From a virus, in the IMG/VR virus record IMGVR_UViG_3300044591_001406, positions 1 through 32,242 of that record: a stretch of DNA of 32,242 bases. One strand, given 5' to 3'. The notes under the pieces are model-generated. The model was not told where the DNA came from, ran no database searches, and worked only from the letters and a program-made list of their open reading frames with translations. Position 1 is the stretch's first letter. Every line of letters starts with the position of its first letter. The translations under genes were made by a program, and so were the position numbers. Below are positions 5,201 to 32,242 of the stretch, in pieces.

Positions 5201-5207
5201 TATTTAG
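5201..5207 (-). promoter_or_regulatory. Weak late-promoter-like site before gp20
   Basis: The gp19-gp20 junction contains CTAAATA on the minus strand, overlapping the gp19 stop codon, in the same arrangement as the perfect octamers elsewhere. It lacks the full TATAAATA, so it may be inactive or weak. Confidence 0.25.
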
Positions 5208-5797
5208 TTGATGTTTTCGCCACCAGCATTTGTGCCATTACCTTTAATTGCTTCCCACCATTGAACTTGGAATTCGCAAGTAAACTCTTCAATTGCATCT
5301 GTAGTTTCATAAGAAAGTGGAATTGATCCAAGATTTGTTGGGAAAATATCATACATATGATATGCCCTGAGTGTTGATCCATCACGATCTAATTGATAAA
5401 CAAAAGCATCTGCCTGATAAAGTGCTGGGTCAGTAGCACCAGTTGCATCAGAAACTCTGTTAATTGAATTAACCCACTTCTCAAGTGCAGAACGAATTGC
5501 AAAATCAGTATCATTAATGACTGTAACAGTCCAAGATTCAAAAGTTCTGTCTCCTGCAATTTTTAGTACTCTGCCTCTGAATGGAACATTGACAGGACCA
5601 ATAGTAGATGCTGGAAGAGCGGCTGCTTTAATTAAAAATCTAATCTTATCAAGAGTATTAGAATCAGTTGGTGCAGATGCTGGGAAAGATAATACAACCT
5701 CAAAAAGATTTGCGCGAGTACCACCACCAGAGAGTTTACTCTTGAAGTCGGTAATCTTCCTTAAAGGAGGTGGATTTAATTGATTTCTGGTTGCCAT
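5204..5797 (-). CDS. gp19: Tail tube protein gp19
   Basis: Forms the inner tube of the contractile tail through which DNA passes. The 197 residues are slightly longer than T4 gp19 (163). Typical features are the basic N terminus (KITDFKSKLSGGGTRANLFEV), the segment PVNVPFRGRVLKIAGDRTFE and the C-terminal IEEFTCEFQVQWWE. A strong Shine-Dalgarno (GAGGT) precedes the ATG in the 21-bp gap after gp18. The order 18-19-20 is that of T4, and it probably shares the gp18 promoter. Confidence 0.96.
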   Translation of the reverse strand: MATRNQLNPPPLRKITDFKSKLSGGGTRANLFEVVLSFPASAPTDSNTLDKIRFLIKAAALPASTIGPVNVPFRGRVLKIAGDRTFESWTVTVINDTDFAIRSALEKWVNSINRVSDATGATDPALYQADAFVYQLDRDGSTLRAYHMYDIFPTNLGSIPLSYETTDAIEEFTCEFQVQWWEAIKGNGTNAGGENIN

Positions 5798-5818: not shown

Positions 5819-8467
5819 TTAGAATTGACCGATTACTTCATCAAATGAAACGCCAGTTCTGGTGGCAACAAAAGTAAGACCAATGAAGTTAATTGATCTT
5901 GCAGGTTTAATGTAGATGTCAGCAACGAATTCATTATTATCAATCACGGCTGCAGTGTTGTTTGTTTCATCACAAACAACTACATAATCGAAGATCCCTC
6001 TCTTTGCTTGAACATCGCGGAGGAAAGGTTCAACAATGTTTACAAAGTTTGTTCTTGTAATTTCATCGTTGAATTCAAAGAGTTGATCTTTAGCAGCAGT
6101 AGAAATTGCATTCTCTAAGTAAATAAAGAGACGACGAACATTGATTCTATCAAATGCTGATGCCTTACCATATCCAGTCTTATCGCCAAATAAGATAATT
6201 CCTGCTCCTGGTGAGAAGATCACTGGATTGATTCTGTTCGAATAAAGACGATCTCTCTGAGACTTGGATGGATTATAAGCAAGTTTTACTGCATTTAGAA
6301 TTGCTCCCCTCGAAGTTCCTGCTGGCGAATACCATGGAAAATTATTAATATCATTGCGAGCACAAGTTCCCGCAATATCACCATTTAGAGGTACATATCG
6401 GAAAGTATCGGAGAATCTATCATACATGTACTTATAACCACTATCAAAAACTGCATAAGTTGAAGATGTAATAGGCCCATAGAAACTAATTACATTCTCG
6501 GTAATATCTTCTGGAGTTCTAACTGTTACTAAATTTTGATCTGAAGTATCTGTAAGAGCCGCACCTCTATATGGTGAAATAAATGCAATAGCATCTTTTC
6601 TCAGTTCAGCAACTTCAATAAGTTTTTGGGCAAGTGCCTGAGCGTCACCTAAAGCATAATTTGCAGATCCCATTAAGAGAAAATCAACTTTAAAATTATC
6701 AGTATCACCAAATAATGAATATCCATCAGAAATCTCACCAATAGTTGCAGTTAATGCACCAGATGTTGTAATTCCACTTTGACCATTGTAATTAACTCCT
6801 CCTGCAAGAATTAAATTAATTCCTCCACTAGCCCCAAAAATGATACCATCTGCTTCTTGATCCCAACCATAATCTGCTTGAGGTGTAAATCCAGAACTAA
6901 ATCCTGTCGTTACAATTCCTGTTGGAGCAGATCCGCCAAAAATATATTCCGAACTATTTGTAAGATATTTTCTCCAATAGGAAGGATTTCCAACTGAGAA
7001 CTGAGCGTCGGATGCTTTAGAAAGATTTAAATGCTTTTCAAGAATTGTTCCTGCATTGCCAGTAATTGATCCAAGTGCATCAATTACTACAACATGAAGT
7101 TCGTCAAATCTTGCTCCTCTAGCACTAGCATATTCTGAAGTAGATGGGCGATCTGCAATATTATTCCACTTGATTGTAGTATTTGTTGAGACTTGTAGTG
7201 TCTGTGCATCAAACCAATCAACATCTGATGTTGCAGTTGTTGCAACAGTATTCCCTAATAATAAACTATTAACTTTTACAAATTCTGATCCAATTGCCAA
7301 GTAACCATTTGTGTTAATTACTGTAGATATTCCAGTTCTAGTTGTACTGATACCAATAATAGTATTTGAAGAAGTAACTGTAGAAGTTACAGTTCCCACT
7401 CCAGAAGTTCTTTGAAGATAATATGCAGTTACATTGTCATTGTGAGTTGCCGCAGTAGTTCCTTCAGAACCTCTCGTTACACCTGTAACTCCACCAGCAG
7501 AAATACTAGCACTACTTAAAGAAATAATTTCATTATCAATTGCTAAAAATCTGTCTGAACCTACCGTGAGATTAGCGGTGGCAATACCAATTGTTGTATC
7601 AGAGGCACTCAGTTGTAATCCACCAGCAGTATCTAAAGTTAGTGTTGATACAAGATAATATGAAGTAATAGCAGTTCCTGCACTAATTGATGCTGCTGAA
7701 CTTCCTAATGACCCTCTTGTTCCAGAAATTGAAGTAGATCCTGCTCCAGTACCAACAAATGAAATTGCATCTGATGCAAATTTGTAAATACTTTTTGGTG
7801 TATAGTCAACAGTAGTTTCTGTACCTGCAGTGCTTACATGAGATAAAACTTTTACATCAACTTTATTAGTTATGGTATCTATTCCTGTAATAATACCTTT
7901 AAAAAATCCAGTAAGTACTGAAGTAGTTCCTGCTCCAGGTAAAACTGTATTTGCTGGAACTGCCTGACTTACACCCAAACCAACCGATAATCCAGTAGTT
8001 GAACTAACAGTTAAAGTTTGATCTGCTTTTGCATCAATGATTGCAACTTTAATTCCATTAGACCAAGAACCAGGGTTTCTTGCAACAACAGTTACGTTGG
8101 TAATTGTATTCTCATCATATCCTAATTCGGTATAATGATCTAAACTCTTAATTTTAATATTTGATGCCGAACCAGCAAAACCATTTTTCAGATCCGTATC
8201 ATCTGCCCTCACTACTCTTAGCGATCCACCATAAGCAAGATAAGATGATGCAGTTAACCAATGCTCATAATGCTTATCTACTGCATATGGTTCTCCAAAA
8301 TTATTAAGTAGATCCTGCTCAGTTTCCACTAAAGTTGGTGAATCTACAGGTCCCTTTGCGAAAGGAGCTGCAATTGCACCAATTTTATTTGAAGATGGAG
8401 TTGCTCTTCCAACTGTTAAGTCAACTTCTCTTACTACAATTCCAGGAGATGCTAAATTTAGCGCCAT
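5819..8467 (-). CDS. gp18: Tail sheath protein gp18 (enlarged)
   Basis: Contractile sheath subunit. The N terminus (LASPGIVVREVDLT, then a G.IAAPFAKGP block and DLLNNFGEP) and the C terminus (KSQRDRLYSNRINPVIFSPG, GYGKASAFDRINVRRLFIYL, and a last block ending near ARSINFIGLTFVATRTGVS) are classic gp18. Length is 882 residues against 659 in T4. The added sequence lies mainly between about residues 130 and 430 and is Ser/Thr/Gly/Ile-rich. It contains a tandem repeat with a period of about 81-82 residues, beginning TRGS.G at 250 and 331 and including LAI..E at 308 and 390. Such surface insertions would face outward on the sheath. A strong GAGGA ribosome site and a perfect late promoter precede the gene. 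Confidence 0.96.
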   Translation of the reverse strand: MALNLASPGIVVREVDLTVGRATPSSNKIGAIAAPFAKGPVDSPTLVETEQDLLNNFGEPYAVDKHYEHWLTASSYLAYGGSLRVVRADDTDLKNGFAGSASNIKIKSLDHYTELGYDENTITNVTVVARNPGSWSNGIKVAIIDAKADQTLTVSSTTGLSVGLGVSQAVPANTVLPGAGTTSVLTGFFKGIITGIDTITNKVDVKVLSHVSTAGTETTVDYTPKSIYKFASDAISFVGTGAGSTSISGTRGSLGSSAASISAGTAITSYYLVSTLTLDTAGGLQLSASDTTIGIATANLTVGSDRFLAIDNEIISLSSASISAGGVTGVTRGSEGTTAATHNDNVTAYYLQRTSGVGTVTSTVTSSNTIIGISTTRTGISTVINTNGYLAIGSEFVKVNSLLLGNTVATTATSDVDWFDAQTLQVSTNTTIKWNNIADRPSTSEYASARGARFDELHVVVIDALGSITGNAGTILEKHLNLSKASDAQFSVGNPSYWRKYLTNSSEYIFGGSAPTGIVTTGFSSGFTPQADYGWDQEADGIIFGASGGINLILAGGVNYNGQSGITTSGALTATIGEISDGYSLFGDTDNFKVDFLLMGSANYALGDAQALAQKLIEVAELRKDAIAFISPYRGAALTDTSDQNLVTVRTPEDITENVISFYGPITSSTYAVFDSGYKYMYDRFSDTFRYVPLNGDIAGTCARNDINNFPWYSPAGTSRGAILNAVKLAYNPSKSQRDRLYSNRINPVIFSPGAGIILFGDKTGYGKASAFDRINVRRLFIYLENAISTAAKDQLFEFNDEITRTNFVNIVEPFLRDVQAKRGIFDYVVVCDETNNTAAVIDNNEFVADIYIKPARSINFIGLTFVATRTGVSFDEVIGQF
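7238..7720 (-). repeat. Tandem ~82-residue repeat in gp18 insertion
   Basis: Two diverged units within gp18 residues 250-410. Each begins TRG(S)xG(S/T)(S/T)AA, then YYL about 20 residues in, then a TIGI segment, then LAI(D/G)(N/S)E. TRGS occurs at residues 250 and 331, LAI..E at 308 and 390. Confidence 0.75.
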
Positions 8468-8524: not shown

Positions 8525-10246
8525 TCAGCGGTAATCCCACATATGTGAACGATCACCATATTCATCAACATTCCAAACTTCTAGAGATTGATTTTCACTT
8601 TGAGCATTTGCAAATATCCATCGATCTCCAGTTTCTGGTTCCACATAAACTTCAGTATCATCTAATCCATCTAAAATAAAACCAAAAGGTGCCATGTCTT
8701 GCTCAATTTGATTCTTTTGTTCTTCATAAATTCTTTTGCGAACATCATTGTTCGTCATTTCCTTGAAGTAATCTTGTGCTACCAACCAAGAGAATATAAC
8801 AAGACACATGGCAAGATCGTCATTGCAACCTTCTTCTGCTTCAAATGATCTACTTTTTTGAATAAATGTTGTAAGTTCCGAGATCATATCATAATCATTA
8901 ATCAAAAGTTTATCATCTTCTACTAACGTCCTTAAGTTGGAACATCCTAACTTTTTAACTGCGGATGTCATGCGAACACCGAGTTGTGATTTTTTACCAC
9001 TAAATCCCGAACCCACAATCTGTCCTGCTCTACCTCTCATCGCACACATTAAAACATTATCATACTCCAAATCAAAATGTAAAATATTTGCTACCTGATC
9101 TCCAATATCATTCACTTCGACCAATAACCATGCATCATCATATGCTTTTGCTACTTCATGAATGATAGCAGGAAACATCATCGGCTTAATTTCATTATTT
9201 TTATATTTTGCTACTGTTCTATATGGGAAATTAGTGATATCAAAAACTATAAATGCAGAGTAATCATTTCCAACTCCTCTTGCAACATCAACAGTAATTA
9301 AATAATTATGCTCTTCCTTTGGATCTTCATAAACATCGAGACCCTTATTTCGCTTTAATGGATCCTCATAAACTAAAGATCTGAGTTTAGTGGCATTAAT
9401 TAAAGTATCAACAGACCCTAAAAACTCACATTCAAACTCAACCTTAAATTGTTGTTCACTAGTGTTAGCAATCGTAGATGCCTTCCATTTGGCGTCTCTA
9501 CCAGGTACTTCTGACCAATGGACATCTGTAGGTACATATTCATTCTTTCCCTTCTCAGCGTCATGCCACATACGGTAGAAGTGATTCATACCGTGAGGTG
9601 TGGATACGATAATTACCTTTGTTGAACTACCAGATGAAATAGTAGGATATACTGATGCAAAAAACTGGTCTGCAATATTATTTGGAATGAATGCAAATTC
9701 GTCCAAGAATATAATATTATAAGATCCACCACGAACAGCAGATGCAGAAGTTGAAGCTGCAATAATTTTTGAACCATTCTCTAGTTCTAATGACTGCTTG
9801 TTCCAAGATACAATACCCTGTTGCATCCATTTCGGAAGATTTTCGTAAGCAAGTTGCAATCTACTCAAGAGATCTTTTGCAGTAGATGCTTTGTTTGCAA
9901 GAATAGCAATATTAACATTATCGTTAAAAACCGCATAATGAAGAAGATAGGACACACAGGTAGTAGATTTACCTGTCTGCCTAGGCATCTTGCAAATATT
10001 AAATCTATTCTCGTGGAATCTTTGAACTAATTTTTCTTGAAACGGAAACATATTAAATGGAATAAGTCCGTGATCCAAAGAAACAATTTTAATATAATTT
10101 TTTGCAAAATATACTGGATCTCTTGAACATTTTACCCATTCAAGAATTTGTTCTTCAGTCCATTGAATAGACGTATTTGCTCTCTTTAAATTTGGATTAG
10201 AGAGATAAGCATCTGATTGCTTTAGTTGAATATCATCAATTGCCAT
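8525..10246 (-). CDS. gp17: Large terminase subunit gp17 (packaging ATPase and nuclease)
   Basis: Motor that cuts concatemeric DNA and pumps it through the portal. The 573 residues compare with 610 in T4. The ATPase domain shows FNMFPFQ (64-70, adenine-binding Gln), Walker A MPRQTGKST (87-95), Walker B IIFLDEFAF (178-186, Asp182-Glu183) and coupling motif VSTPHG (214-219). The RNase H-like nuclease shows the acidic residues Asp320 (ITVDVARG), Glu377 (LVEVND) and Asp476/Asp477 (CNDDLAM), matching the T4 catalytic triad. All key residues are present. The ATG lies 6 nt from the stop of the upstream repeat protein and an AGGT ribosome site lies inside that gene's end. Unlike T4, three genes separate it from gp16. 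Confidence 0.98.
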   Translation of the reverse strand: MAIDDIQLKQSDAYLSNPNLKRANTSIQWTEEQILEWVKCSRDPVYFAKNYIKIVSLDHGLIPFNMFPFQEKLVQRFHENRFNICKMPRQTGKSTTCVSYLLHYAVFNDNVNIAILANKASTAKDLLSRLQLAYENLPKWMQQGIVSWNKQSLELENGSKIIAASTSASAVRGGSYNIIFLDEFAFIPNNIADQFFASVYPTISSGSSTKVIIVSTPHGMNHFYRMWHDAEKGKNEYVPTDVHWSEVPGRDAKWKASTIANTSEQQFKVEFECEFLGSVDTLINATKLRSLVYEDPLKRNKGLDVYEDPKEEHNYLITVDVARGVGNDYSAFIVFDITNFPYRTVAKYKNNEIKPMMFPAIIHEVAKAYDDAWLLVEVNDIGDQVANILHFDLEYDNVLMCAMRGRAGQIVGSGFSGKKSQLGVRMTSAVKKLGCSNLRTLVEDDKLLINDYDMISELTTFIQKSRSFEAEEGCNDDLAMCLVIFSWLVAQDYFKEMTNNDVRKRIYEEQKNQIEQDMAPFGFILDGLDDTEVYVEPETGDRWIFANAQSENQSLEVWNVDEYGDRSHMWDYR

Positions 10247-14791: not shown

Positions 14792-15589
14792 TTAAATATC
14801 TGTTTGCTGATTTGGACTATAAGACTTGGAATCGTTAAAGAACTCCCAATTTTCATTAAATCCAAAATCATCATCTGGACCTGCATCAATAGGTTCTGGA
14901 ACAACAGTATATCTCATTTCTCTTTTTGAATTTACCGTATCTGTACTAGTATATGTATCAACTTGTACCTTACGAATAAGTCCATCTGTAGTATCAGAAA
15001 TAGGACCAAAGAGATAAGTTTTTGCAGTAAATTTTAATGTATAAATTAATGACCTTCTAGTAGAAAAATCTCCTTCATAGTCATCTTTAAAGGTTATATC
15101 ATCTAAATTTAAAGGAATATCTCTTTTTTCTCCGATTGAATCTACAAGATCTACAGTTAAAGTAAATGCTGGTTGAAAATATGGTAAAATTTGTTCTATA
15201 ATTTGTAAAGCATCATCATTTAATTTGCACATAATGCTTAATTCAAATCCAATGTTATATGGGACAGGCATATAAACTTTTTTTAAATTTTGCCCATCAG
15301 ATGCCTTAAAAGATTGGGTAACACTTGCTTTCCTTGCTGGATCATATCTAATAGAGGTCATTTCAAATGACATTCTTGGTAAAGTGATCTGAACAGGTTT
15401 GTTTAAATCTGCTTGCTGCGTTAAACGAGCAAGAAATTTTTGTGTTGGACCATATGCCAATGGTACTCTCAGTTCACTATAAATTTCATCATTAGCATCT
15501 TGGTGCTTAATATAAATTTGGTTAAAAACCGTACCGAAAGCAATAATTGTCTTTCGTATAATGTGATGATAATAGTAAGTTCCTAGCAT
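14792..15589 (-). CDS. gp15: Tail terminator / sheath stabiliser gp15
   Basis: Caps the tail tube and sheath and joins tail to neck. The 265 residues match T4 gp15 (272). The N terminus MLGTYYYHHIIRKTIIAFGT, with IYIKHQ and RVPLAYGPTQKFLARL soon after, is diagnostic, as are RMSFEMTSIRYDPARK, VPYNIGFELSIM and LIYTLKFTAKTYLFGP. Its ATG overlaps the gp14 stop by 1 nt (TAATG), so translational coupling is likely. Confidence 0.96.
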   Translation of the reverse strand: MLGTYYYHHIIRKTIIAFGTVFNQIYIKHQDANDEIYSELRVPLAYGPTQKFLARLTQQADLNKPVQITLPRMSFEMTSIRYDPARKASVTQSFKASDGQNLKKVYMPVPYNIGFELSIMCKLNDDALQIIEQILPYFQPAFTLTVDLVDSIGEKRDIPLNLDDITFKDDYEGDFSTRRSLIYTLKFTAKTYLFGPISDTTDGLIRKVQVDTYTSTDTVNSKREMRYTVVPEPIDAGPDDDFGFNENWEFFNDSKSYSPNQQTDI

Positions 15590-16989
15590 TAATAGTTACC
15601 AAATGGATTTGATTCTGAGAAATCTACAATGAGATCTGCCTCACTTTCAATTTCATCATTTTGTTCATATTTATCTACAGATTCACTTTTGGAAGTATTT
15701 TTAAGTGTATAACGTGCTGATGATGCCGATCCAACAATTGCTTCTCCTGGAATAAATTGTCCATCAATAACGCCAACTTCTAAAGTAGTTGAATCTTTAT
15801 ACCAAGATTTGACTCTTGCAGTAGTGCCAGAAATAGATCCAGTGACAATTTCATTAAATGAATACGTACCAATTCCAGTTACCAATGGTGGTGGTGCTAT
15901 AGTAATAGTCGGTGGAAATTCATATCCTTTTCCAGCATCTTCAATAGCAAGAAAGTCCATTTGTCCATCATTTGTAATAAATGCTCTAACTTTAGATGTT
16001 ACAATTCCAATTCCTGGACTTGGAGAACTAACAGTTACAATTGGAGCATTTGCATACCCAGAACCATAAGTTGCAATTCCAACAACATTTAACCCACTAG
16101 ATTGAGTAACCAATTCACATATTGCTTCCGCCCCAGATCCAATACCACTAATTGTGATTGATGGTGCTACAGTGTATCCAGATCCAGCAGCAGTTAATAG
16201 TATTTCTTTAATGGAACAAACCCCACCTTTACAAGTTGTAATTGCAATTGCAGAAGCAGTTTGCCCCCCTACAGGTGCGGATGTAAATGAAATGTTTGGA
16301 GTTTGTGTATATCCATGTCCATCATTATTTAAAATGACCCTTCTAACATATCCAGATGAAACTCCAACTGAATCTGCAGTAGCTGTTTGATTGCTTGTAA
16401 ATAATTGAAGAGATGTTATATAACCTTGATTTTGTAAAGTTCCATCTATCTCTTCCACGACAGAATTTACATCACTAAATCCACCAATTTCATCTTCATA
16501 TTCAAAGAGTTCACATCTTAACTCATAAACATAAGTTTTTCCTAGTTGATAGAATGGTTGCTCATGTTCTACAAATTTAACTTCAAATAATCGTTTTCCC
16601 AATGGAAAATAAATAATATCTCCTTCTCTTGGTCTTGTAGATAGGATGATTTCATCATTATCCATACTATCTAAAAATGGTGCTATAAAATCCTCAAATC
16701 TTTCTCTTGATATAATAATTGTTAATTCATCTTTTAAATTCATTCCAAATTTAGTCAAAATATCACCAGACCCAGCATACCCATCATAGTTACTTACATA
16801 TGCTTCGATGGCAAAATTATCATCAAATCTTGATGCAGTAACTTCTCTTATAATAGTTTCTTGCCTTACAAATTTCCTAGGAATATATAAAACTTCCACA
16901 CCATAAATCTTTAGTTGCTCGTTAATTAATTCCTGAACGAGTCTTTGTTCTCCTGGAGATCCTTGTAAGAAAAAGGGATTAAGTGCCAT
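15589..16989 (-). CDS. gp14: Neck protein gp14 with a beta-repeat insertion
   Basis: Head-completion/neck protein needed to join tail to head. Residues 1-170 carry the T4 gp14 fold signature (YGVEVLYIPRKFV, FGMNLKDELTIIISRERFED, REGDIIYFPLGKRLFEVKFV, EQPFYQLGKTYVYELR) and the last 25 residues (DFSESNPFGN) correspond to the T4 C terminus. Length is 466 against 256 in T4. The excess, about residues 175-435, contains four units with a G(H/S/K)GYxxxPxI core at 224, 269, 309 and 353, then an SGTTARV..WY module at 380-424. The start ATG overlaps the gp13 stop (TAATG). The insertion is probably a surface-exposed beta domain on the neck. Confidence 0.95.
   Translation of the reverse strand: MALNPFFLQGSPGEQRLVQELINEQLKIYGVEVLYIPRKFVRQETIIREVTASRFDDNFAIEAYVSNYDGYAGSGDILTKFGMNLKDELTIIISRERFEDFIAPFLDSMDNDEIILSTRPREGDIIYFPLGKRLFEVKFVEHEQPFYQLGKTYVYELRCELFEYEDEIGGFSDVNSVVEEIDGTLQNQGYITSLQLFTSNQTATADSVGVSSGYVRRVILNNDGHGYTQTPNISFTSAPVGGQTASAIAITTCKGGVCSIKEILLTAAGSGYTVAPSITISGIGSGAEAICELVTQSSGLNVVGIATYGSGYANAPIVTVSSPSPGIGIVTSKVRAFITNDGQMDFLAIEDAGKGYEFPPTITIAPPPLVTGIGTYSFNEIVTGSISGTTARVKSWYKDSTTLEVGVIDGQFIPGEAIVGSASSARYTLKNTSKSESVDKYEQNDEIESEADLIVDFSESNPFGNY
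15898..16320 (-). repeat. Four GxGYxxxPxI repeats in gp14
   Basis: Units GHGYTQTPNISF, GSGYTVAPSITI, GSGYANAPIVTV and GKGYEFPPTITI start at gp14 residues 224, 269, 309 and 353. The spacing is 40-45 residues, consistent with repeating small beta units. Confidence 0.85.
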
Positions 16990-18723: not shown

Positions 18724-18916
18724 TTTTCTCAAGTAATTGTTTCAATAAAGATTTTATCTCACTTATTTCATTTTTTATGTTATCAATTTCTCTTTTTTGA
18801 GAATCTCTTTTATGAAGAGAATTTACATAGTTATTATATGCTATTGTGTCATGATTGATAATAGCACCAGTTTGTTCATCCCGATATAAATTGGGATATC
18901 CTTCAACTTTTATCAT
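18710..18916 (-). CDS. Small coiled-coil protein of unknown function (68 aa)
   Basis: A 68-residue protein. The first half is MIKVEGYPNLYRDEQTGAII, reminiscent of short tail-fibre-region proteins. The second half is a heptad-like charged helix (KREIDNIKNEISEIKSLLKQ), probably a coiled coil. The start overlaps the stop of the 2441-residue gene by 4 nt (ATGA), a standard coupling arrangement. Function unknown. Confidence 0.78.
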   Translation of the reverse strand: MIKVEGYPNLYRDEQTGAIINHDTIAYNNYVNSLHKRDSQKREIDNIKNEISEIKSLLKQLLEKNGSL

Positions 18917-21900
18917 CTTACTGCTAATGTTCTAAGTTGTTTAATAATTGGAACATATGCTTGATTTGTTCCTGACATTACAATTTTAATTCGATATCCA
19001 ACGAATAAATCTAGATTATCTGCTGTGAATTCATATTCCCTAAATTCTCCATTTAAACTAGAAGGAACTTTAACATCTGGTCTTCCACTATTTCTAGATT
19101 GATCCAAAACAAGATATCCATCATTATCATTATATTTTAGATTATCATATCCTGGAAAAAGTTCAAATGATTGTGAAATTTCACTAGAATCTGCTCTATC
19201 TAAACTATAAAGAACTCTAAAATCCGAAGATTCGTGACAATATGCAGATAAAATAACTTTCAGACATTTTGCTGGATTGCTCAATGAAATTGTTTGTGAA
19301 ACATATGCCGAAGCATGTGGATCATAAAGTATAGAATTAACTCTCCCATCTGATGCATAATCATAAATTGGTTTATCAATTCTATTGCTATAAAATTCAG
19401 TGAATGCAATGTCGGTGAATAATACTGGAGATAAATTTTTATCTTCTGAAGAAAATGTTATTCCAGTGGTAAAAGATTTATTTCTAGGTAAATTAGTCAG
19501 TTTTACGGATTCATTTATTTTAGAGCATACAATTCTTGTAGAATTTAAACTGTTTAATTGACCCAATTGTACAGGTTCAAATCCTTCATCTAAGAATGAA
19601 GTTTCATCTCCACCTACACTAGTACCACTTACAGTTCTAATATTTGCATTTACAAAAGTTGTGGATCCTGGAGTTAAAATATCATAAGTTGGTACTAGTG
19701 CATTGAATTGAATATTTTCTGTTACTAAAACTTCAGAACCGCCAACAGTTTGTTGACTTGTAAATGAAAGTTGAGGACGACCAGATGCATCAGCACTTCG
19801 ATCTATACCATAGTTTCCATTTGCTGAAGTATCAATTTCCAGATAATAACCATCTAATCCGATATTTAAGTCACTAATATCATGTGTTTTATTAATTCTT
19901 CTCAAAGAAATTCCATTTAATTCATACTTATACATTAAACTATTAATTGAATGGGTAGAAACAATTGTTGAATCAATTCCTCTTCCACCAGAAATTATCG
20001 TCAAAACTCCACTAGCACTAACATTACTGTATCCAATAATTTCATTATTAACTTTTACATATCCTGGATTAGTTGGAGTTACTGGAATTCCTTCAAAGGT
20101 TGCAAAATTTGTAGTGTCTCCAGCACCGATACTAATTGAAGTTATATTTTCTGCAAGTAACTCAGAAGTTAATACAACTGGAGAAGTACTAGATTGAACA
20201 TTTTTCACAATTAGTTGATTTGTATTTGAATACATCCCATGATCAAAATGATCAACCTTTAAGAAATTGCCCGAATTTGTATTTGTTGGACTTATTTGAG
20301 GAGTTACTGAAGAACTAGTTATATAAGTATTAGCAAGAGAAATCCTATTTCCGGAGTTGTCATAATATACCAATCTCGCACTTCCATTATTAGTAAAATC
20401 TAGTGCTTGAACTCCAGTAAGATATAAAGTATCAATACTGTTACTATTTCCAGTAATAGTAATTACTGCACCTGCACCAGATCCACTTCCTGTACCTACA
20501 GTTGATGTAACAATGCCAACTACATCTCCAATTGCATATCCATGTCCTGTAGATACAATAGTTATTGCTTCGTTAACTACCCCATTAGTCGCTGAAATAT
20601 TTAAAGTTAGACCAGATCCTTTTCCAGTAATATTAAATGTACTTACATTACTATCATTAACATAATTTTTTCCACCAGTAGTAAGTCCTACAGAAGAAAC
20701 TGAACTACCAGTACCAACAATAGTTCCATATCTATATGTAATTGTATCTTCTCCAATTTTTCTTCCTGGTGTTAATATATCAGAAAGAATATATGAAGTT
20801 GTGATGCCAATAGAAGCAGTTTTTGGTAATGTTGTTAACGGATTATTATTGAGTTTTTGGACATACCCATTACTCTCATCTAGTGTTGGATTATAGAAAA
20901 ATGTTGTTCCAGTGTTTGACGTAAATTCTGCTTTATAAAGTTTAAATTTTAAGTCTTGATCATCACTTGGAGTCCATTCTGCACCATTTTGAGATTTATA
21001 TAATCTTCCGAGGGCAAATTGTTTAGTATATTTCACTTGATCAGCATCTGGTAATGATGCTGTATTAACTGTCTTCTCTTTCATCACTGCAGTCCATAAG
21101 TAATACTTGTCACTTGTATCGGCAATAATTACTACTGCATATTGTCTTCCTGGGGCTAAGTAAATTGGTTCTGGAAATACTACATGAGTTGCAACTTCCG
21201 CATTGTTAGAAATAGAAATATCTTCGGGTCTTAATGTAGCAGGAGTTCCAAGAACAGTTCTCGTTGGAGTTCCAAATTCTACAGTCCTTATTTCTACTCT
21301 TACTACATTATTTCCCTCATCTTTTGTGGCAAAATACAAATCAACTGCAGTTACGAATGCACCATTTGAATCATCATTTGTATTAATAGCAGAAGGTGCC
21401 TCAATTCTGCCACCGACAGCAAAAGTCTGTGCTAGAGGATCATAATATCTAGCGTGAGTTACACGTTCTTTCCATGTTTGAGTTTGTGTCGTTTCAACGG
21501 TAGTTATTGTAGTAGTAACTACATTTTCAAAGGTTTCGACTGTTCCTTCTGAAGTATAAAGTACTTCCGCACTAGAAAGATCTTTATTTCCTGGAAGTGG
21601 TGCTTCATTAGTGGCACTTGAATTTAATTTGAATGTCTTCTTACCAGTATTAATTCTTACTGTAGGTGCAGGATCTGTATTTGGATCTTTTAAGAAAAAT
21701 GTTCCGATTAAATCTCCATAATTATCAGTAATTAATCTGAGATCTTTGACATAAGCAACTGCTCCACTAGTTTGTCCAACTAGTCTCATACCCTTTACTA
21801 AATATCCACGATATTTTCCTTGTGCTTCTTCACATAAAGAGTAAGTATCAACATTTAAAACTTTTGAAGAAGAACTATATGTAGAAGATAATTTTTCATC

Positions 21901-24900
21901 TGGAAAATATGGATTTATTTGATATGTTTTAGATGGAGAATTGAATTGTCCATATTTATGATCTCCTGAAGCAACTCTAAAAGTAATTAAATCTTGTCCA
22001 CCATAAGTTCCAATAACAGTTTCACCTACTTCAAATTGTTTTGATGATCCATAATTTTGTAATGTAGTATCATTTGCAATTTCTATAAGTTTTGGTATAA
22101 AATCAACAGAACTATTTCCATCAAGAAAATGATAAAATTGTGTTTTTGCTTTTAAGGAAGATACCGAGAATTCAGTATTTCTAGATCTCATATATTGATC
22201 TATAGAAGATCCTAAAAATGCTCGTGTCGTGGATTGATTTGTATTGGAAGAACTAGTTGTTACTACGTTACTACGATCAAATATTTCAGTTTCATATCTT
22301 ACTGCACTTCCACTACCGGTAGATTCTCCAGTCCTATTAACATCATTTATATTAACTATACCAAGATCTAATTTGAGATTTACTGATGCTGAAACCTGTC
22401 TATCTGCCAATTGTACAGTTCTAACCCAACGATCTTCTTCAGGAGTAAGTTTTATATTTCCAATATATTCTAAAATATGGAAAGGGTTTACATTTTCTTG
22501 AGTAGTTGCAAAAGGTTGCTCTATCCATCCAATAGAATTATATTTTAAGGTTACAACTTTTCCAGTTTTTTGTACATTTGAATCTAATAATTCAAAATTA
22601 GTTGATAGATCTAATTCCTCATCAATTAAATTTTTTGCAGGTGCTAACTGACTTTTAAGGGTATTTCTACTTACAATAGGTCTTAATTCATTTCCACCAA
22701 TAGATGATCTAGATTGTGAAATTTGAATTTTGGACACATCCATATTGATCAAACTATAATTTTTAAAATCATCCACAAAGAATCCAGATTTGAATCTATC
22801 CTTTCCTTCAGCATCTTGAATTTGAAGTGATGCCGTTGATGCCTCAAGTAATGATAAAGAAGTGACTCTTTCTAAATTTTCTACTCTATTTTCTATTAAT
22901 CCAATATCTCTCATAGTATATCTTCTATTGTCAACAGCAGTTATTTTTGCATCCGAAGGATTGTAAAGATATGCTGGTAAAGTAATGGTTGCAATTTCCA
23001 TTACATCATCATTTTTAGTTGGGGGTTTTGGTGATTTTGCAGGAACACCTTTTTGAAGTAATAAAACTCCAAATTTATTAACATATAACTTATCAATTCT
23101 TGGTAAGTAATATTCATATCCAATTAAAGAACTTTCATTTGGAGATAAAATAATTTTAGGATCATTTGTAAAAATTCTAGATTCAAAATCAAATGGTGAT
23201 TCAGTTGTTGAAGAAAATACTGGAACTCTTGGTCTAAAATCTAAAGTATCTGAGCATCTAACTCCTTTAGATCCAATGGAAGGTATGTCACTTAAAAATC
23301 TTTGTTCATCATAACTTAGTACCGTGAAAACATCTCCAGAGTCACTTGCGGGTACAGTATAATGATCAAATACTATTAGCAATTGTTTGGAAGGTTCTAC
23401 ATTATTATCGTTCCTAACAATTCTAGAATAATCATAATATTGTTCTTTTTGTCCTTTATCTAATTTATATGAAGATGTTAAATTTTTATATTTTCCTTCA
23501 GTTATTGAAACAATATCTGTAGTAATATTCGATTCTTCAAATGTTACTGATTCTCCAGCAGAGAATGTATTTTCATTTAAATATACAATTCCTAAAGTAT
23601 TTGCAGATGGTTTTGTAACGACTCTTGCTACTGCTTTACTTGAATTTCCTAGGATATTTTCACCAATTATCGCATTTGTAATTACATTTGCACTAGCACT
23701 AAATTCAATTTGATCTAATACAGGAGCACTAGTATCAAAGGATTCATAAATTGCAATAATTTTTGCAACATCAGGATAATTTAGGCAAATTTCTTCATCC
23801 TGAACTCTCAAACCATAAAACCTATTATAGGTCAATCCATCATTAATTGATGAACTAGCATTACTTCCAGATTGTGAATATTTTGATAATGTTATATTAA
23901 TTGTACGACTTCTACTATATTCTTTTTTCTTACTGGTAATTCCATTTTTAATCAATGATGCATTAACTACAACATCCCCACTTAAAGATAAATTAGTTAA
24001 AGTTGCAGTAGTTAAATCTTCTGATAATACAAATTTATCAGATGTCAATGGTTCTGTTGCTCCAGTATCATAATGAAGTGAATATCTTTCCTCATCAAAT
24101 GCTTGCAAAAATGAATTAGTCAGTCCAAAATCTGAAATAGAGATTTCTGCCTCACCAAATGCTACAGATACAGTTACTTGTGCAGAAATGGAAAGATTTG
24201 ATCCTGATAAATTTACAGATGCAATATTTTTATTGGGCAACGGCGTATATAAAAATCCTGCAGTATTATTTCTTATAGTTGGCATTCCAATTGAAACATT
24301 ATATAATCCAGTAGATGGGAGACTTCCTTCACATACATTTGAAACGCTAGTAACTGTTGCAAGTGTAATTGAAAGCCCATCAGCAGAGACACCAGTTACT
24401 CTATTAAAAGTTTCTACAGTTGTTCCGGGTTCTTGATATCTAATAATACTTCCTATTTTTATTCCAGTAAAAACTGATCCATTAGAAGTAGTAGTTCCAG
24501 TGCTTCCATCAATATTTACTGAGGTTACCCCATTTGGCAAAGTAAATTTTTCGAGATAAGAATCTGCAAGAAATGCTATTGCATATCCAGATGTAGAAGT
24601 CGATTGATAGACCGATTTAATGTCATCTGTAGAGTATGTTTGAACTGATTTTATTGTTCTTGGAAAATCTACTCCATCAAGTTGAATTTGTTCTCCAACA
24701 GAAAATGATCCTGAAGTTTGGCGTAAATACATTACTGCAGATCCACTCCCATCAACAGTAGCATATCCACTTGCACCGCTACTTTTTCCTTTAATAAATG
24801 AAGTTTTCTTTAATTCTGATGAAGATACTGAAGAATTTAATGTTATTTTAGTATATGTTTGAATATCATATAAGTATAAATCCCATTTTGTGGATGCATT

Positions 24901-26238
24901 AGAATATGCAGCATCCGTTAAATTAAATGTATATACTCTAGCATCTCCAATTTTTGTTCCATTTGGAGATGAAGTTGAATTTTTTCTTTGATCATAAAGT
25001 GCTATTGTTTTATTAAATTTTGGGGTTCCGGAGACATTATTAACCCTTAAGAGATTTCCCATCTCAAATGGAACATTTGCTGCAGATATAGTTTCTTTAT
25101 CTCTAGGTTTATCAACATCAAGAATTGTTGTTCCAGTTGTAGTTACATCATATCCCTTAACGTAACATTTTCCTGGAGATATTTTTACACACATCAAATC
25201 ATCTGATGGCGTATTTCCTTGATCAGTTTTTTCGTTACTAAAAAATATTCCATTATTACCAAGTCTATCATTCAATGAATTATGTACTGAAGGAATGAAT
25301 GGATTTACTGAATAGTCTCCAGATTCATCATAAGTTCTTTGTGCAAAATAATCTTTGATTAAAGAATATTGAGTTTGTGTTTCAATTTTTTTAATCTTTC
25401 CATCTTGAACTCTTAATAATTCAATAAAATCTGTATCATTTGTATCTGTTAAAAGTTTTTTTGTTAGACTCAAATTAATTTTAAATCTATCTGCGCCAGG
25501 AGCTGCATAGTTAGTGAACCCTTTTGCATTATCATATAGTGTTTTATCATCTTTAGAGGTTATAATTAATTCATCAACTTTCAAACCAACTCTATAAGAT
25601 GGAGTATTTGTGTAATGATCAAGAATCAATGTGTCTGCTTCTACATTAGCAAAATACCCTCTAATAAAATATACACCCTTGGCAATAGAAACTGCAGATC
25701 CTATAGAAGTTGCATTTGATGATATCAATGATGCAAAAGGAGTTCCTGAATTAATAGTAGTATTTCCATATACTATAGTTTCATTTGCAGATAAAGATTC
25801 CCCGTCTTCAAATGGATTAAATTTGAAATTATTATCAGAATCTAAGTATTTTACATATATTGTTAAATCTGTCACATTATTTCCATCAGGTAATGCAACA
25901 TATTGAATAATTGCAGTTGTACCCGAAGATTGTCCTGTTATTTTTTTACCTACAAAATAATTAATATATACTGAAACATCAATGCCAAAATTGGTGGGAT
26001 TAAGTTTTACTGAATAGTATTGTCCATCATATCCCACATTACCTGGGATCACCATGGATCCCTCTTTGAACATATGACTACCAAAAGATTCTATTTGATT
26101 TTGAAGAATCGATTGAAAAGTTGTTAGTTCTCTAGCTTGAACTGGTCGCCCTGGATTAAATAAGACTTTATAATAATTCTTCTCAGAATTAAAATCATCA
26201 TAATATGGACTAACATTTAAATTTGTTTTTTGTGCCAT
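18913..26238 (-). CDS. Giant DUF4815-type virion/baseplate protein (2441 aa)
   Basis: Follows gp8 by 6 bp and fills, with four small genes, the interval of T4 genes 9-12 and wac. The N-terminal region (NVSPYYDDFNSEKNYYKVLF, NPGRPVQARELTTFQSILQN, GSHMFKEGSMVIPG) is the DUF4815-type domain found in marine T4-like phages. Other recognisable parts are DTLDFRPRVP, a region near residues 1580-1700 (TFAVGGRIEAPSAI, DLYFATKDEG, PIYLAPGRQYAVVI), a GxGY segment and a C-terminal domain ending LDLFVGYRIKIVMSG. At least four copies of a G..I.G.SSG..A module occur near residues 97, 480, 860 and 1480. Probably a baseplate-peripheral or fibre-like structural protein; I know of no direct functional assignment. 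Confidence 0.92.
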   Translation of the reverse strand: MAQKTNLNVSPYYDDFNSEKNYYKVLFNPGRPVQARELTTFQSILQNQIESFGSHMFKEGSMVIPGNVGYDGQYYSVKLNPTNFGIDVSVYINYFVGKKITGQSSGTTAIIQYVALPDGNNVTDLTIYVKYLDSDNNFKFNPFEDGESLSANETIVYGNTTINSGTPFASLISSNATSIGSAVSIAKGVYFIRGYFANVEADTLILDHYTNTPSYRVGLKVDELIITSKDDKTLYDNAKGFTNYAAPGADRFKINLSLTKKLLTDTNDTDFIELLRVQDGKIKKIETQTQYSLIKDYFAQRTYDESGDYSVNPFIPSVHNSLNDRLGNNGIFFSNEKTDQGNTPSDDLMCVKISPGKCYVKGYDVTTTGTTILDVDKPRDKETISAANVPFEMGNLLRVNNVSGTPKFNKTIALYDQRKNSTSSPNGTKIGDARVYTFNLTDAAYSNASTKWDLYLYDIQTYTKITLNSSVSSSELKKTSFIKGKSSGASGYATVDGSGSAVMYLRQTSGSFSVGEQIQLDGVDFPRTIKSVQTYSTDDIKSVYQSTSTSGYAIAFLADSYLEKFTLPNGVTSVNIDGSTGTTTSNGSVFTGIKIGSIIRYQEPGTTVETFNRVTGVSADGLSITLATVTSVSNVCEGSLPSTGLYNVSIGMPTIRNNTAGFLYTPLPNKNIASVNLSGSNLSISAQVTVSVAFGEAEISISDFGLTNSFLQAFDEERYSLHYDTGATEPLTSDKFVLSEDLTTATLTNLSLSGDVVVNASLIKNGITSKKKEYSRSRTINITLSKYSQSGSNASSSINDGLTYNRFYGLRVQDEEICLNYPDVAKIIAIYESFDTSAPVLDQIEFSASANVITNAIIGENILGNSSKAVARVVTKPSANTLGIVYLNENTFSAGESVTFEESNITTDIVSITEGKYKNLTSSYKLDKGQKEQYYDYSRIVRNDNNVEPSKQLLIVFDHYTVPASDSGDVFTVLSYDEQRFLSDIPSIGSKGVRCSDTLDFRPRVPVFSSTTESPFDFESRIFTNDPKIILSPNESSLIGYEYYLPRIDKLYVNKFGVLLLQKGVPAKSPKPPTKNDDVMEIATITLPAYLYNPSDAKITAVDNRRYTMRDIGLIENRVENLERVTSLSLLEASTASLQIQDAEGKDRFKSGFFVDDFKNYSLINMDVSKIQISQSRSSIGGNELRPIVSRNTLKSQLAPAKNLIDEELDLSTNFELLDSNVQKTGKVVTLKYNSIGWIEQPFATTQENVNPFHILEYIGNIKLTPEEDRWVRTVQLADRQVSASVNLKLDLGIVNINDVNRTGESTGSGSAVRYETEIFDRSNVVTTSSSNTNQSTTRAFLGSSIDQYMRSRNTEFSVSSLKAKTQFYHFLDGNSSVDFIPKLIEIANDTTLQNYGSSKQFEVGETVIGTYGGQDLITFRVASGDHKYGQFNSPSKTYQINPYFPDEKLSSTYSSSSKVLNVDTYSLCEEAQGKYRGYLVKGMRLVGQTSGAVAYVKDLRLITDNYGDLIGTFFLKDPNTDPAPTVRINTGKKTFKLNSSATNEAPLPGNKDLSSAEVLYTSEGTVETFENVVTTTITTVETTQTQTWKERVTHARYYDPLAQTFAVGGRIEAPSAINTNDDSNGAFVTAVDLYFATKDEGNNVVRVEIRTVEFGTPTRTVLGTPATLRPEDISISNNAEVATHVVFPEPIYLAPGRQYAVVIIADTSDKYYLWTAVMKEKTVNTASLPDADQVKYTKQFALGRLYKSQNGAEWTPSDDQDLKFKLYKAEFTSNTGTTFFYNPTLDESNGYVQKLNNNPLTTLPKTASIGITTSYILSDILTPGRKIGEDTITYRYGTIVGTGSSVSSVGLTTGGKNYVNDSNVSTFNITGKGSGLTLNISATNGVVNEAITIVSTGHGYAIGDVVGIVTSTVGTGSGSGAGAVITITGNSNSIDTLYLTGVQALDFTNNGSARLVYYDNSGNRISLANTYITSSSVTPQISPTNTNSGNFLKVDHFDHGMYSNTNQLIVKNVQSSTSPVVLTSELLAENITSISIGAGDTTNFATFEGIPVTPTNPGYVKVNNEIIGYSNVSASGVLTIISGGRGIDSTIVSTHSINSLMYKYELNGISLRRINKTHDISDLNIGLDGYYLEIDTSANGNYGIDRSADASGRPQLSFTSQQTVGGSEVLVTENIQFNALVPTYDILTPGSTTFVNANIRTVSGTSVGGDETSFLDEGFEPVQLGQLNSLNSTRIVCSKINESVKLTNLPRNKSFTTGITFSSEDKNLSPVLFTDIAFTEFYSNRIDKPIYDYASDGRVNSILYDPHASAYVSQTISLSNPAKCLKVILSAYCHESSDFRVLYSLDRADSSEISQSFELFPGYDNLKYNDNDGYLVLDQSRNSGRPDVKVPSSLNGEFREYEFTADNLDLFVGYRIKIVMSGTNQAYVPIIKQLRTLAVR

Positions 26239-27828: not shown

Positions 27829-30800
27829 TTAGGATATTTTTTTAGGTAATGATCCAGTGCCTCGTATACCAATACCTTGCTCCCCAGTGCTTCTTCTTTG
27901 AATTGTTGAAAGAGTTGTTAATCCAGCACCAACATCAATTATGTTTCCAGAAACACCTATTGAAATTGGCGAACTAGATCTAGTAAATCCACTCATTCTT
28001 CCCCAAGAGAAATTTCCGACCATAGATTCAAAAGTTGTAAGACCTATTGTAGAAGTTGTGGATAATATATTGCAAGTAATGATTCCAATATTTTGTGATA
28101 CATAAGATGCACTAATATTATAAATGTTATCTAAGAAGGTATTTGCAATTCCAACAACTGAAGAATCTGAAGTATAAATTGAAGTAACTCCCATTCCAAT
28201 ATTTGTATTAAAAATATAAATTGGATAACCAGTTGGGACACTCATCGCTACTCCAACAGGGCACTTTAAATAAAATTTAAGTGCCAAAGGAACTCCTATT
28301 CCAGATGTTGTAGTTATGCCAGTAATGATCCCCGAAGAACCTTGAACAACAGAGATATTAGTTATAACTTCTTTTTTGAAATTAGTAGTTAATCCAACAG
28401 TATTTACAGAATTGGGATCAATAATTATAGCATTAAATTGTGGAGTATTGTCATTCTCATAATTAAAGAATTGTGCATTGTCAACAAAAATCTCATTATC
28501 AGTAATAGAAAAATCTTTAATTATTTTGGCAGTTGGGTATACTAATGATTCAATGGAATCTCTAGATTTATAAACTATTTCACCGTTAATAAAACTATCT
28601 TTTTTTTGTTTGATCCAACTCATTGGTTTATAATTTACAGTATCCACACCTTGATCAGAATATGAATTAGTTTCAAATTTATCAGAGTATGTTAAATCAA
28701 ATACTATTCTTTTATTTTGAGATACTGTTTCTCTTATATCATTTCTTTTTAATATTTGAATAGTATCACCTTTTTTTATAGTTTCTGGCACGTCTAAATT
28801 AAGTTTACTATCAGAACCCTTAGTTCCTCTATAAAAGAATATTGCAATTTTATCTTCTGGTTTTGGTGCAGAAGTAAATACAAAAGATGTTCCTCCAACG
28901 AATTGATATGAAACTCCAGGTTCTTGAATAACTCCATTAATAACAATAAACAATAAGTTATTTAAATCTATAGTAGAATCTGGTAATGTTTCAAAACTAA
29001 GTAGTTGTGAATTATAATATAATGGAAATCTGGTTCTTACTCCATCTTGATAATTTTTTACTGAATCTATATAATCAAGTTCACCAAATTGCCAAGATGC
29101 AAAGGAATCTGAAAATGTATCAATAACTGTCAGTTGAAATTCTGATATTGGAGACAATAATCTTCTATCAGTAACTAATCCAACAGGTTTAAACACATCT
29201 CCACGATTAAATGAATATCCTTGTCTAGCAATTTTAAATGAGGATACACCAAAATAAGTAGATCCTATTCCAGTAGAAGAGGTAATACCAGCATCAACAT
29301 CAACTGTTAATAATAATCCAATTCCTGTGTCTGTTGTTGATCCAATCCCCAATCTGGAAATTCCAATAACTTCCAAATTCTCATAAGATGGTGGAGAAAC
29401 TAATATTTTTGGATTTGTGTATCCTGTTCCACCATCGCCAATAATTGTAAAAGATAATGTTCCTCCTGCGCCAACAGACGCTCTTATAGACGCTGCTGTT
29501 CCAGTATGTCCACTTTGATATACACTTACACCTATAGAAACAATTCCATTATATCCAGAACCAAGATTATCGGTAGTTCCTAGACCAACTGATACAATAC
29601 TACCTCCTGCGCCAACTACGGCAGTAACTGACACCCCAACAAGAGGTGCATACCCTAATCCAAGTGTTGATCCAAGAGAAACAATTATTCCTCCTCTTGG
29701 TGTTTGATTTTGATTTACATCCAATTCAGAAGTAATAAATTGTCCATTAGCTGGATTTTGGATGCCAGAAAATACAACACTTGATATTCCAGAATTGTCA
29801 TTTCCAATAATTATAAAATTATTTTCTGGATTATTATCTGTTGTTGGAGTTTGGAAAATTCCATTTATAAAGAGAATTCCATTTCCTCCGATAGTTCCCA
29901 ATCCTACAGTACTAATTCCTTGATTGGTTAATGTAAAAGTTCTTCCTATTCCTGTAAATTTATAAGATATATCATCATAAATTTGATTTGTACTATAATC
30001 ATTTCTTAAAAATACTCTTCCAGAAAAATCTGAAGTTTCATATAATAAATTGCTTCTACCTATTCTTAATTGTGGATTTCCTCTTGGTGCTTCTACAAAG
30101 AAAATTTTACTTCCAACAATATTAAAAGATCCTCTATAAATTGTTCCAATTCCTGTAGTATCAGCATGATTAGTTGCAGATGAACCAACAAAACCTCTAG
30201 AAACTTCAACTAATGAGAAAGATCCTGAATTAGTAATAGGGCCGACACTTGTAGTACCAAGTCCAACAGAGATGACTTTCATATACTCATTATCAACTCT
30301 AAGTATATCTTTTGGTACTATTGAAGAAATACCACTTAGAGAAAATATAGTTGAAGTAGCATTAATTTGTCCACCATTGTTGGTAAGTCTATAATTTATT
30401 GGTGTATATGATAGTGGATATTGTGCAATATTATCTACAGTAATTAATGATTTATCATTTTTGTGATACATTTCAAGTTGGTGAGCATTTCCCAGTCCAT
30501 AAGAAGTAAACGTTACACCTATTCCCAATAATGCATAATCTTTTCTAGTTGATAATTTAAACGTATTATCAGAAATTTTGATCACATACACTTCTGATGG
30601 CAACCTATCAGTAACAATTCCAGAAGAATTTAACGTATGTCCTATTCCTACAGCACTTTCACCAATTCCAATAAATGTAGATTTGGGAGTATAAATCAAT
30701 CTCTCAGCATTACTAAAGAAGTGATTTGGAATTGTAAATCTACCAGTAGAAGGATTTAAAACTGTTATATCAGTAGGATTAAAAGTTTTTGCAAATATTG

Positions 30801-32242
30801 GTATTTCATTTGTTTTTAAATCAAAATCCAATCTTGAAATTCTATCACCATTAATTGCATTATAAGAAACAATTTCAAAAGATTCATCAACTTTTCCATA
30901 AGAAAGATTTGGTGGAATATTTTCAGTATTTGTAGCAGTGTATATGCATTGATTAAATGAAAGAATATTAATATTTGAATTTATATTTGGATCTTTATAA
31001 AATTTAAATTGGAAATTGTTACCAGAATATTCTGCTCCAAATGTTCCTATTCCCAATGTTCCTATTCCTAATGCTCCTTCAACTGAAAGAAATGTAGATT
31101 GTTGAATATAGAAATTTGTTTGGTCATGAACTAATAAAATCTTATGTAAAGAACTAGTCGATCCCATGCTTACTTTAACAAAAGATTTAATTGCATTAAA
31201 ATCAAATTTATTTAAAGTTGTTAAAGTTGTAGATGCTGAAGAAACATTTTTTAGATACTTAGATTCATACATTGCAGTCTGCTCATAACCATCTATTTCT
31301 CCAGGTAATTTGAATCTATATGTCCCTACTCCAACTGATGTCGATCCAAATCCAACAATTTTTGAACTAATATTTACAGTATTTGTTGAATTATTAGTAT
31401 AGTTTAATGACAATATTCCACCAGGTGAAATATTGGATCCAAAAGTTCCAATCAAATTGCCAGAATAATTATTTGTCGAAGATTCTGAGTCAAAATAATA
31501 TTCTGAAATGTAAGTATTTGTACCATCATAGTTTAGATAAACATTGACAAAATTCATTTGATTAGTTAAATTGTCAACTATTTTAACATTTGCATATAAA
31601 GATTCAAAATTATATGATGGGATAGAAATGATTGTAGTTGTTATTCCGGATTGTGAAGTTGTTACTACGCCACTCAAATTTACAAATCCTATAGATGTAG
31701 TTCCAATCCCTGCAGTAGATGAATTAAATTTGCTACGAATTAATTTAATATCATAATCATAATCATATGGATTTGTTGGAATAAACTGAATATAATTTTC
31801 ACCTATTTCATCTTCATAAATTGAAAATTGCCCAATCTGTTCTCCGGGAATATGAGTAGTTCCTGCTCCAACTCCAGTTAATGATTCTTGTTCGAGTAAG
31901 AAAACATTAGTACCATTATTCAGTATTATTAATTCTGTTAATTGTATCTGTGTATATGAAGTATTCGAAATTTTAAAAAGTAATTCATTATATGAATCTG
32001 AAGAATTTAATTTAAAAACATTTAAAAATGTTAATGGAGTTCCATCAATATCAGAAAAGTTTTTACTTATGTCATCTATTTTTAAAACTACATTACTTAT
32101 ACATTGAATATAGTCGGATAATTTTTTATTCTTTAATTTTATAAACTTTGATGAATTATTTACTGTATCAATATCATTAACTAAATCAAAATTATAAATT
32201 GTATCTACTTTATTTTCTTCTACTATATTATTGACAATATTT
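27829..32242 (-). CDS. Giant virion structural protein, 5' end beyond window (at least 1470 codons)
   Basis: The frame is open from its stop at 27829 to the right edge, so the start lies outside. A TTG at 31677 gives an apparent 1282-residue product, but 188 more in-frame codons upstream continue the same protein (for example YNELLFKISNTSYTQIQLTE and ENYIQFIPTNPYDYDYDIKL). It is Gly/Ile/Ser/Thr/Asn-rich with many GIG, GIGT and VGLGTT motifs, three GxGY units around 29395-29675 and a VDNEYMKV...SRGFVGSSATNH module at 30155-30305. The C-terminal third looks globular (LDYIDSVKNYQDGVRTRFPL, INGVIQEPGVSYQF, SWIKQKKDSFINGEIVYKSR). It precedes gp8, the place of gp7 in T4; marine phages often have a large structural protein here, sometimes called VrlC. 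No clear gp7 signature was seen. Confidence 0.9.
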   Translation of the reverse strand, partial: NIVNNIVEENKVDTIYNFDLVNDIDTVNNSSKFIKLKNKKLSDYIQCISNVVLKIDDISKNFSDIDGTPLTFLNVFKLNSSDSYNELLFKISNTSYTQIQLTELIILNNGTNVFLLEQESLTGVGAGTTHIPGEQIGQFSIYEDEIGENYIQFIPTNPYDYDYDIKLIRSKFNSSTAGIGTTSIGFVNLSGVVTTSQSGITTTIISIPSYNFESLYANVKIVDNLTNQMNFVNVYLNYDGTNTYISEYYFDSESSTNNYSGNLIGTFGSNISPGGILSLNYTNNSTNTVNISSKIVGFGSTSVGVGTYRFKLPGEIDGYEQTAMYESKYLKNVSSASTTLTTLNKFDFNAIKSFVKVSMGSTSSLHKILLVHDQTNFYIQQSTFLSVEGALGIGTLGIGTFGAEYSGNNFQFKFYKDPNINSNINILSFNQCIYTATNTENIPPNLSYGKVDESFEIVSYNAINGDRISRLDFDLKTNEIPIFAKTFNPTDITVLNPSTGRFTIPNHFFSNAERLIYTPKSTFIGIGESAVGIGHTLNSSGIVTDRLPSEVYVIKISDNTFKLSTRKDYALLGIGVTFTSYGLGNAHQLEMYHKNDKSLITVDNIAQYPLSYTPINYRLTNNGGQINATSTIFSLSGISSIVPKDILRVDNEYMKVISVGLGTTSVGPITNSGSFSLVEVSRGFVGSSATNHADTTGIGTIYRGSFNIVGSKIFFVEAPRGNPQLRIGRSNLLYETSDFSGRVFLRNDYSTNQIYDDISYKFTGIGRTFTLTNQGISTVGLGTIGGNGILFINGIFQTPTTDNNPENNFIIIGNDNSGISSVVFSGIQNPANGQFITSELDVNQNQTPRGGIIVSLGSTLGLGYAPLVGVSVTAVVGAGGSIVSVGLGTTDNLGSGYNGIVSIGVSVYQSGHTGTAASIRASVGAGGTLSFTIIGDGGTGYTNPKILVSPPSYENLEVIGISRLGIGSTTDTGIGLLLTVDVDAGITSSTGIGSTYFGVSSFKIARQGYSFNRGDVFKPVGLVTDRRLLSPISEFQLTVIDTFSDSFASWQFGELDYIDSVKNYQDGVRTRFPLYYNSQLLSFETLPDSTIDLNNLLFIVINGVIQEPGVSYQFVGGTSFVFTSAPKPEDKIAIFFYRGTKGSDSKLNLDVPETIKKGDTIQILKRNDIRETVSQNKRIVFDLTYSDKFETNSYSDQGVDTVNYKPMSWIKQKKDSFINGEIVYKSRDSIESLVYPTAKIIKDFSITDNEIFVDNAQFFNYENDNTPQFNAIIIDPNSVNTVGLTTNFKKEVITNISVVQGSSGIITGITTTSGIGVPLALKFYLKCPVGVAMSVPTGYPIYIFNTNIGMGVTSIYTSDSSVVGIANTFLDNIYNISASYVSQNIGIITCNILSTTSTIGLTTFESMVGNFSWGRMSGFTRSSSPISIGVSGNIIDVGAGLTTLSTIQRRSTGEQGIGIRGTGSLPKKIS
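31040..31068 (-). repeat. 15-bp direct repeat encoding LGIGT units
   Basis: A 14-bp core (plus strand AATGTTCCTATTCC) occurs at 31040-31053 and 31055-31068, with a third degenerate copy after it. It encodes LGIGTLGIGTFG. Confidence 0.7.

Follow-up and report, generated by a model that had tools for sequence, protein, structure and literature searches.

The DNA analyzed here (the window) is a stretch of 32,242 nucleotides, positions 1 to 32,242 of IMG/VR virus record IMGVR_UViG_3300044591_001406. The open reading frame at 5819–8467 on the minus strand (gene 18) encodes a protein of 882 residues that was found to match Pfam families PF17482 (58 bits, cut-off 26.9) and PF04984 (46.4 bits, cut-off 31.4) and the tail sheath family PHROG 23 (E 3.2e-122). 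In a structural comparison, this protein matched the T4 structure 3foa with a Z score of 23.6 (352 aligned residues, 3.3 Å). The gene 18 product is a contractile tail sheath of the T4 type (gp18), with the subtilisin-like and C-terminal sheath domains present, and the virus that carries it is of the marine cyanophage type. The open reading frames at 8525–10246 and 5204–5797 adjoin the sheath gene and have the place and size expected for the genes of the terminase large subunit and the tail tube; in isolates, the tail tube gene comes after the sheath gene. In GenBank record MW015081.1, the sheath of S-SRM01 (130000–132174) is labelled as a terminase large subunit, and the RefSeq copy is labelled as a tail sheath.

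The sheath contains an insertion at a loop designated site 2 (residues ~234–411; 7235–7768, minus strand), which was delimited by the distance between two conserved anchors in long versus short sheaths. At least 599 candidate stretches were found in IMG/VR and 80 loci were kept. Full-length sheaths were obtained from 74 of the 80, or 75 with the window included. Among the matches listed, 46 of these proteins have 716–734 residues, 11 have 800–832, and 18 have 882–902; because the loci were selected for similarity to the sheath or the insert of the window, these class counts are not prevalences. The gap between the two anchors is 216–233 residues in the 18 long sheaths and 58–67 residues in the 46 short sheaths. 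Thus, among the matches listed, the insertion is absent from 46 of the 75 full-length sheaths compared. The isolates S-SRM01, S-SKS1, P-SSM2, S-T4, S-CAM7, and ACG-2014f also do without it. A diverged version is found in S-CAM9, S-PRM1, and S-8S55; of these, S-PRM1 did not reach the automatic threshold and was assigned to the site-2 class by hand.

The sheaths of intermediate length were found to carry other inserts. Nine of the 11 sheaths with 800–832 residues are extended by another insert at a loop that comes earlier in the chain (site 1); this loop measures 91–105 residues in these proteins and 11–18 residues in most short sheaths. This site-1 insert of ~80–90 residues is carried by L016, L018, L022, L024, L026, L029, L035, L036, and L064, which are scattered across the core tree described below. 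Another insert of ~82 residues lies in the site-2 loop of L020 and L021 and was not scored as the repeat unit. When the unit was sought in the 11 sheaths of ~800 residues, none was scored at an E value of 1e-3. A series of zero, one, and two copies, with one unit for each ~800-residue sheath, was rejected because these sheaths carry other inserts.

An earlier note on this DNA, made from the sequence alone, had described a tandem repeat inside a tail sheath insertion at 7238–7720 (minus strand), which corresponds to residues 250–410 of the 882-residue protein, and had proposed a dot plot, a comparison of insertion lengths, and a predicted structure as checks. The Pfam and PHROG 23 matches agree with the assignment as a sheath, and the relatives of 716–734 residues and the anchor gaps given above agree with the stretch being an insertion. 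The insertion contains two copies with a period of 81–82 residues. In an ungapped dot plot, the diagonal at an offset of 82 (residues 299/381, 31 points) is present and among the best windows, with offsets 39 and 601 scoring level with it; the claim of a repeat therefore rests on the gapped and profile tests. A gapped self-alignment has a score of 85. None of 1000 shuffles on a matched grid reached this value (mean 45.4, standard deviation 6.9, maximum 76). An initial set of 300 shuffles, for which the split grid was coarser than for the observed value, gave a mean of 52 and a maximum of 79. A diverged repeat beyond chance is confirmed in the sheath insertion, as the note had stated.

A tblastn search of a phage collection with the window insert, with the low-complexity filter on, gave no match at an E value of 0.01. 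The insert of a relative, used as the query on the isolates, found six records, all of them tail sheaths. The empty search thus reflects, at least in part, a limit of sensitivity, and low-complexity filtering may have contributed. It is highly improbable that the repeat is a by-product of composition with no folded module, as the richness of the region in S, T, G, A, and V and the empty filtered search might suggest, since this origin is contradicted by the composition-preserving shuffles that never reach the observed score, by 12 columns that are invariant across 39 members, and by the confident model of the insert.

The boundaries of the repeating unit were determined with a profile of the central 72 residues from 17 members. 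The upstream flank matches mainly the second half of this profile and the downstream flank mainly the first half. In the window, a half-unit C' (residues 235–268; 7664–7765, minus strand) aligns with profile positions 36–70 at 9.3 bits, and a half-unit N' (residues 362–408; 7244–7384, minus strand) aligns with positions 5–47 at 20.7 bits. The complete central unit N-C (residues 280–351; 7415–7630, minus strand) lies between them, defined by the unit boundaries, an independent profile, and the fold matches. Because the flanks match complementary halves of the profile, the order of the insertion is C'-[N-C]-N'. The natural module is the N-C unit of ~72 residues, and the insertion is one complete unit flanked by complementary halves. 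When the two flanks were joined, their score exceeded that of every one of 1020 shuffles (maximum 7.0 bits) in 13 of the 17 members, with 15.8 bits for the window; L004, L008, L009, and L013 did not pass this test. The independent profile, which was built from only six units of S-WAM1, P-TIM40, and S-SZBM1, matches the central unit in all 17 members (E 5e-12 for the window) and extends across both joined halves in some of them, the window match being weak (E 0.017). Within the central unit, E313 and R332 are each kept in 39 of 39 members. The residues of the split halves, E395 and R251, are kept in 37 and 39 of the 39, respectively, and would be expected to meet in space.

The insert was modelled from 39 sequences with a mean pLDDT of 87.6 and a pTM of 0.80, most blocks being above 90, and is thus a confident model. 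The model of the whole sheath is likewise confident over the insertion residues and poor over much of residues 698–882. A Foldseek search of the PDB returned nothing at an E value of 0.001 (best E 0.54). Against the PDB sequences, the whole-insert profile gave only a chance match (E 2) and the unit profile gave no match up to an E value of 10. The structural matches come from a second look at the PDB candidates of Foldseek, with the contiguous central unit (residues ~273–355) as the query. This unit matched the VP1 capsid chain 9in6_M (Z 9.9, 75 aligned, 2.2 Å, 25% identity), the Chi tail tip 8vjh_A (Z 9.1, 74 aligned, 2.0 Å), the JBD30 baseplate 8rk3_b (Z 8.9, 75 aligned, 2.4 Å, 21% identity), GP4 8jov_1 (Z 8.1, 79 aligned, 2.7 Å), and the Mystique tail tube (Z 7.5). 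Unrelated F1-ATPase barrels score a Z of 6–7, and the JBD30 value is above these values but not far above them. No text on the structures of VP1 or Chi was found in a literature search. In a comparison with predicted viral structures, S-H9-1 gave the best match with a tail-fibre-like protein (TM 0.71, normalized by query length); S-WAM2 has a tail protein that scores 0.57, and the S-WAM1 sheath ranks fifth at 0.43.

The JBD30 match covers residues 479–559 of the baseplate chain, which probably correspond to domain VI of the hub. The passages on this domain describe a small six-stranded β-barrel that stabilizes the baseplate (PMC11445458). Unlike the sheath insertion, JBD30 has a single barrel in the hub of a siphophage. 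In some members, the central unit also aligns with positions 32–97 of Pfam family PF23666 (Rcc01698_C), a C-terminal domain family whose name comes from a Rhodobacter GTA protein. Ten of the 29 units searched match this family at E ≤ 1 (best E 0.00059), the window unit has no match among them, and the best score of 20.4 bits (L019) lies below the cut-off of 27 bits.

The same module was found in other proteins. In the window, a copy in the canonical N-C order lies at 30148–30357 on the minus strand (residues 629–698, profile domain E 6.1e-6), within an open reading frame at 27829–32241 that is open at the window end and matches PHROG 2885, baseplate wedge. A weaker copy lies at 19948–20133 on the minus strand (residues 2036–2097, E 0.0023, 8.3 bits) in a structural protein of 2441 residues (18913–26238, minus strand); this protein also carries DUF4815. 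When 29 unit members were compared with the PHROGs at an E value of 0.01, matches were obtained to tail protein (24/29), tail fibre (19/29), virion structural protein (19/29), an unnamed PHROG (18/29), and baseplate wedge (5/29). The sheaths of the isolates S-WAM1, P-TIM40, and S-SZBM1 resemble that of the window in having this unit within a cyanophage sheath, but they contain a tandem pair of whole N-C units at an earlier loop, whereas the window has C'-[N-C]-N' at site 2. A tblastn search with the S-WAM1 tandem also touches cyanophage gp15 sheath stabilizers and baseplate wedge proteins. A hypothetical protein of S-H38 (NC_070964.1, 53149–53499) matches 80% of this query with 29% identity (E 6e-4) and, judged from its sequence, may be another tandem barrel protein.

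These results bear on the unit as it was first described, a segment of 82 residues running from TRG to LAI..E. Its period of 81–82 residues stands, but its limits are shifted in phase relative to the module shared with other proteins. An arrangement in that original phase would place two tandem barrels on the sheath like beads on a string, with each 82-residue C-N copy forming its own circularly permuted barrel. The regular period and the contiguity of the two C-N copies are as this arrangement predicts. We nevertheless consider it unlikely, since the matches to solved structures cover the contiguous N-C unit rather than C-N, and other proteins carry the N-C order.

The distribution of the insertion was examined on a quick core tree of 97 sheaths and 695 columns from which the insert columns were excluded. 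The tree has long branches (P-SSM2, L008, L022, L078, L050, L023, L090, and L053), and two long groups join near the root. On this tree the insertion requires 9 changes, with gains and losses counted alike, and at least 6 of these are forced by the starred branches. The core of L025, which lacks the insertion, is 80% identical to that of the window, and the core of L003, which has it, is 69% identical. The identity of the insert follows that of the core with r 0.91 over 666 pairs, a comparison from which L133 was excluded because one flanking pattern was not found. L090 is an outlier, with a core that is 76–77% and an insert that is 76–82% identical to the window group. Its flanks are mostly nearer S-SRM01 and L027, and its residues ~125–410 are nearer L001; this pattern fits either a double crossover or a chimeric contig. 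We read this as a cassette that comes and goes among related viruses and is probably passed between them by recombination.

According to the passages on domains I and II of T4 gp18 (PMC3004832), these domains (residues 83–365) lie on the sheath in contact with the surrounding solution. The insertion sits between conserved anchors that flank the part of the sheath equivalent to domains I and II. With MAFFT, the mapping to T4 domain I is ambiguous and the region is badly placed; hhalign aligned only residues 552 onward, the C-terminal part, to T4 gp18; and a pairwise test against T4 domain I gave scores close to or at the limit set by shuffling in most of the five sheaths. By homology to T4, we infer that the insertion is exposed on the virion and densely repeated along the tail.

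The insertion would be a captured stretch of a portable phage β-barrel module. Capture out of phase would have left a half-barrel C', a whole barrel N-C, and a half-barrel N'. The whole N-C unit would fold as one barrel, and the C' and N' halves, which are brought together because both ends of the insertion return to the same host loop, would most likely close into a second barrel that is circularly permuted. This barrel pair would occupy the solvent-facing middle part of each sheath subunit, like domains I and II of T4, and recur along the tail. Its role would most likely be an accessory one, either weak adhesion to material on the cell surface or lateral contacts by which the tail or folded-back fibres are stabilized. 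In cyanophage A-1(L), long tail fibres are described as folded back along the sheath groove in the relevant passages of PMC10966104, and a contact between insertion and fibre could be another possibility.

It is possible, but on balance improbable, that the insertion acts in assembly only, packing between subunits as a cement with no contact to the cell. Domain VI of the JBD30 hub is described as a small barrel that stabilizes its baseplate, and the additional domains of other sheaths have been proposed as virion stabilizers (passages of PMC9230969). However, 46 of the 75 sheaths, isolates among them, do without the insertion, and it is therefore not generally required for assembly. We favor, with moderate confidence, the reading of an out-of-phase captured portable barrel pair that is exposed on the sheath and serves in accessory adhesion or lateral stabilization. 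More tentatively, and at somewhat less than an even chance, we propose a nested double barrel with an outer barrel made from both ends of the insertion, derived by out-of-phase capture from a tandem array and used as an exchangeable surface cassette of cyanophages that covers the tail with host-interacting modules, with the same module captured separately, in canonical phase and at another slot, in other cyanophage sheaths.

Extra sheath domains are already known. In type 3 (multidomain) phage tail sheath proteins, the additional domains are often Ig-like, according to the passages on such domains in Evseev et al. 2022 (PMC9230969). The insertion resembles these in being an extra β-rich domain in the sheath, probably likewise away from the tube side, and adhesion or virion stability was proposed for them. 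It differs from them in resembling small barrels, in being doubled in a permuted phase, and in recurring in baseplate proteins. With regard to an Ig-like fold, the fold matches listed for the central unit are small phage barrels and F1-ATPase barrels. The passages of that paper on additional sheath domains make no mention of the site-2 insert, and no title or opening abstract that describes it was found in the literature. What stands out here is the permuted order of the unit, the use of a second slot, and the probable exchange. A repeated structural protein is decorated with a module that also occurs in baseplates; at least two slots and two phases are used, and there are signs that viruses exchange the module. 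Completion of the outer barrel across the ends of the insertion, if it occurs, would make this a clear natural example of repeat capture with a shift of phase, and the sheath could then serve as a testable accessory adhesion surface.

Elsewhere in the window, an open reading frame of 466 residues in the neck and tail gene run (15589–16989, minus strand) has several GYxxxPxI-like stretches that were noted by eye, and these may perhaps represent a different repeated module.
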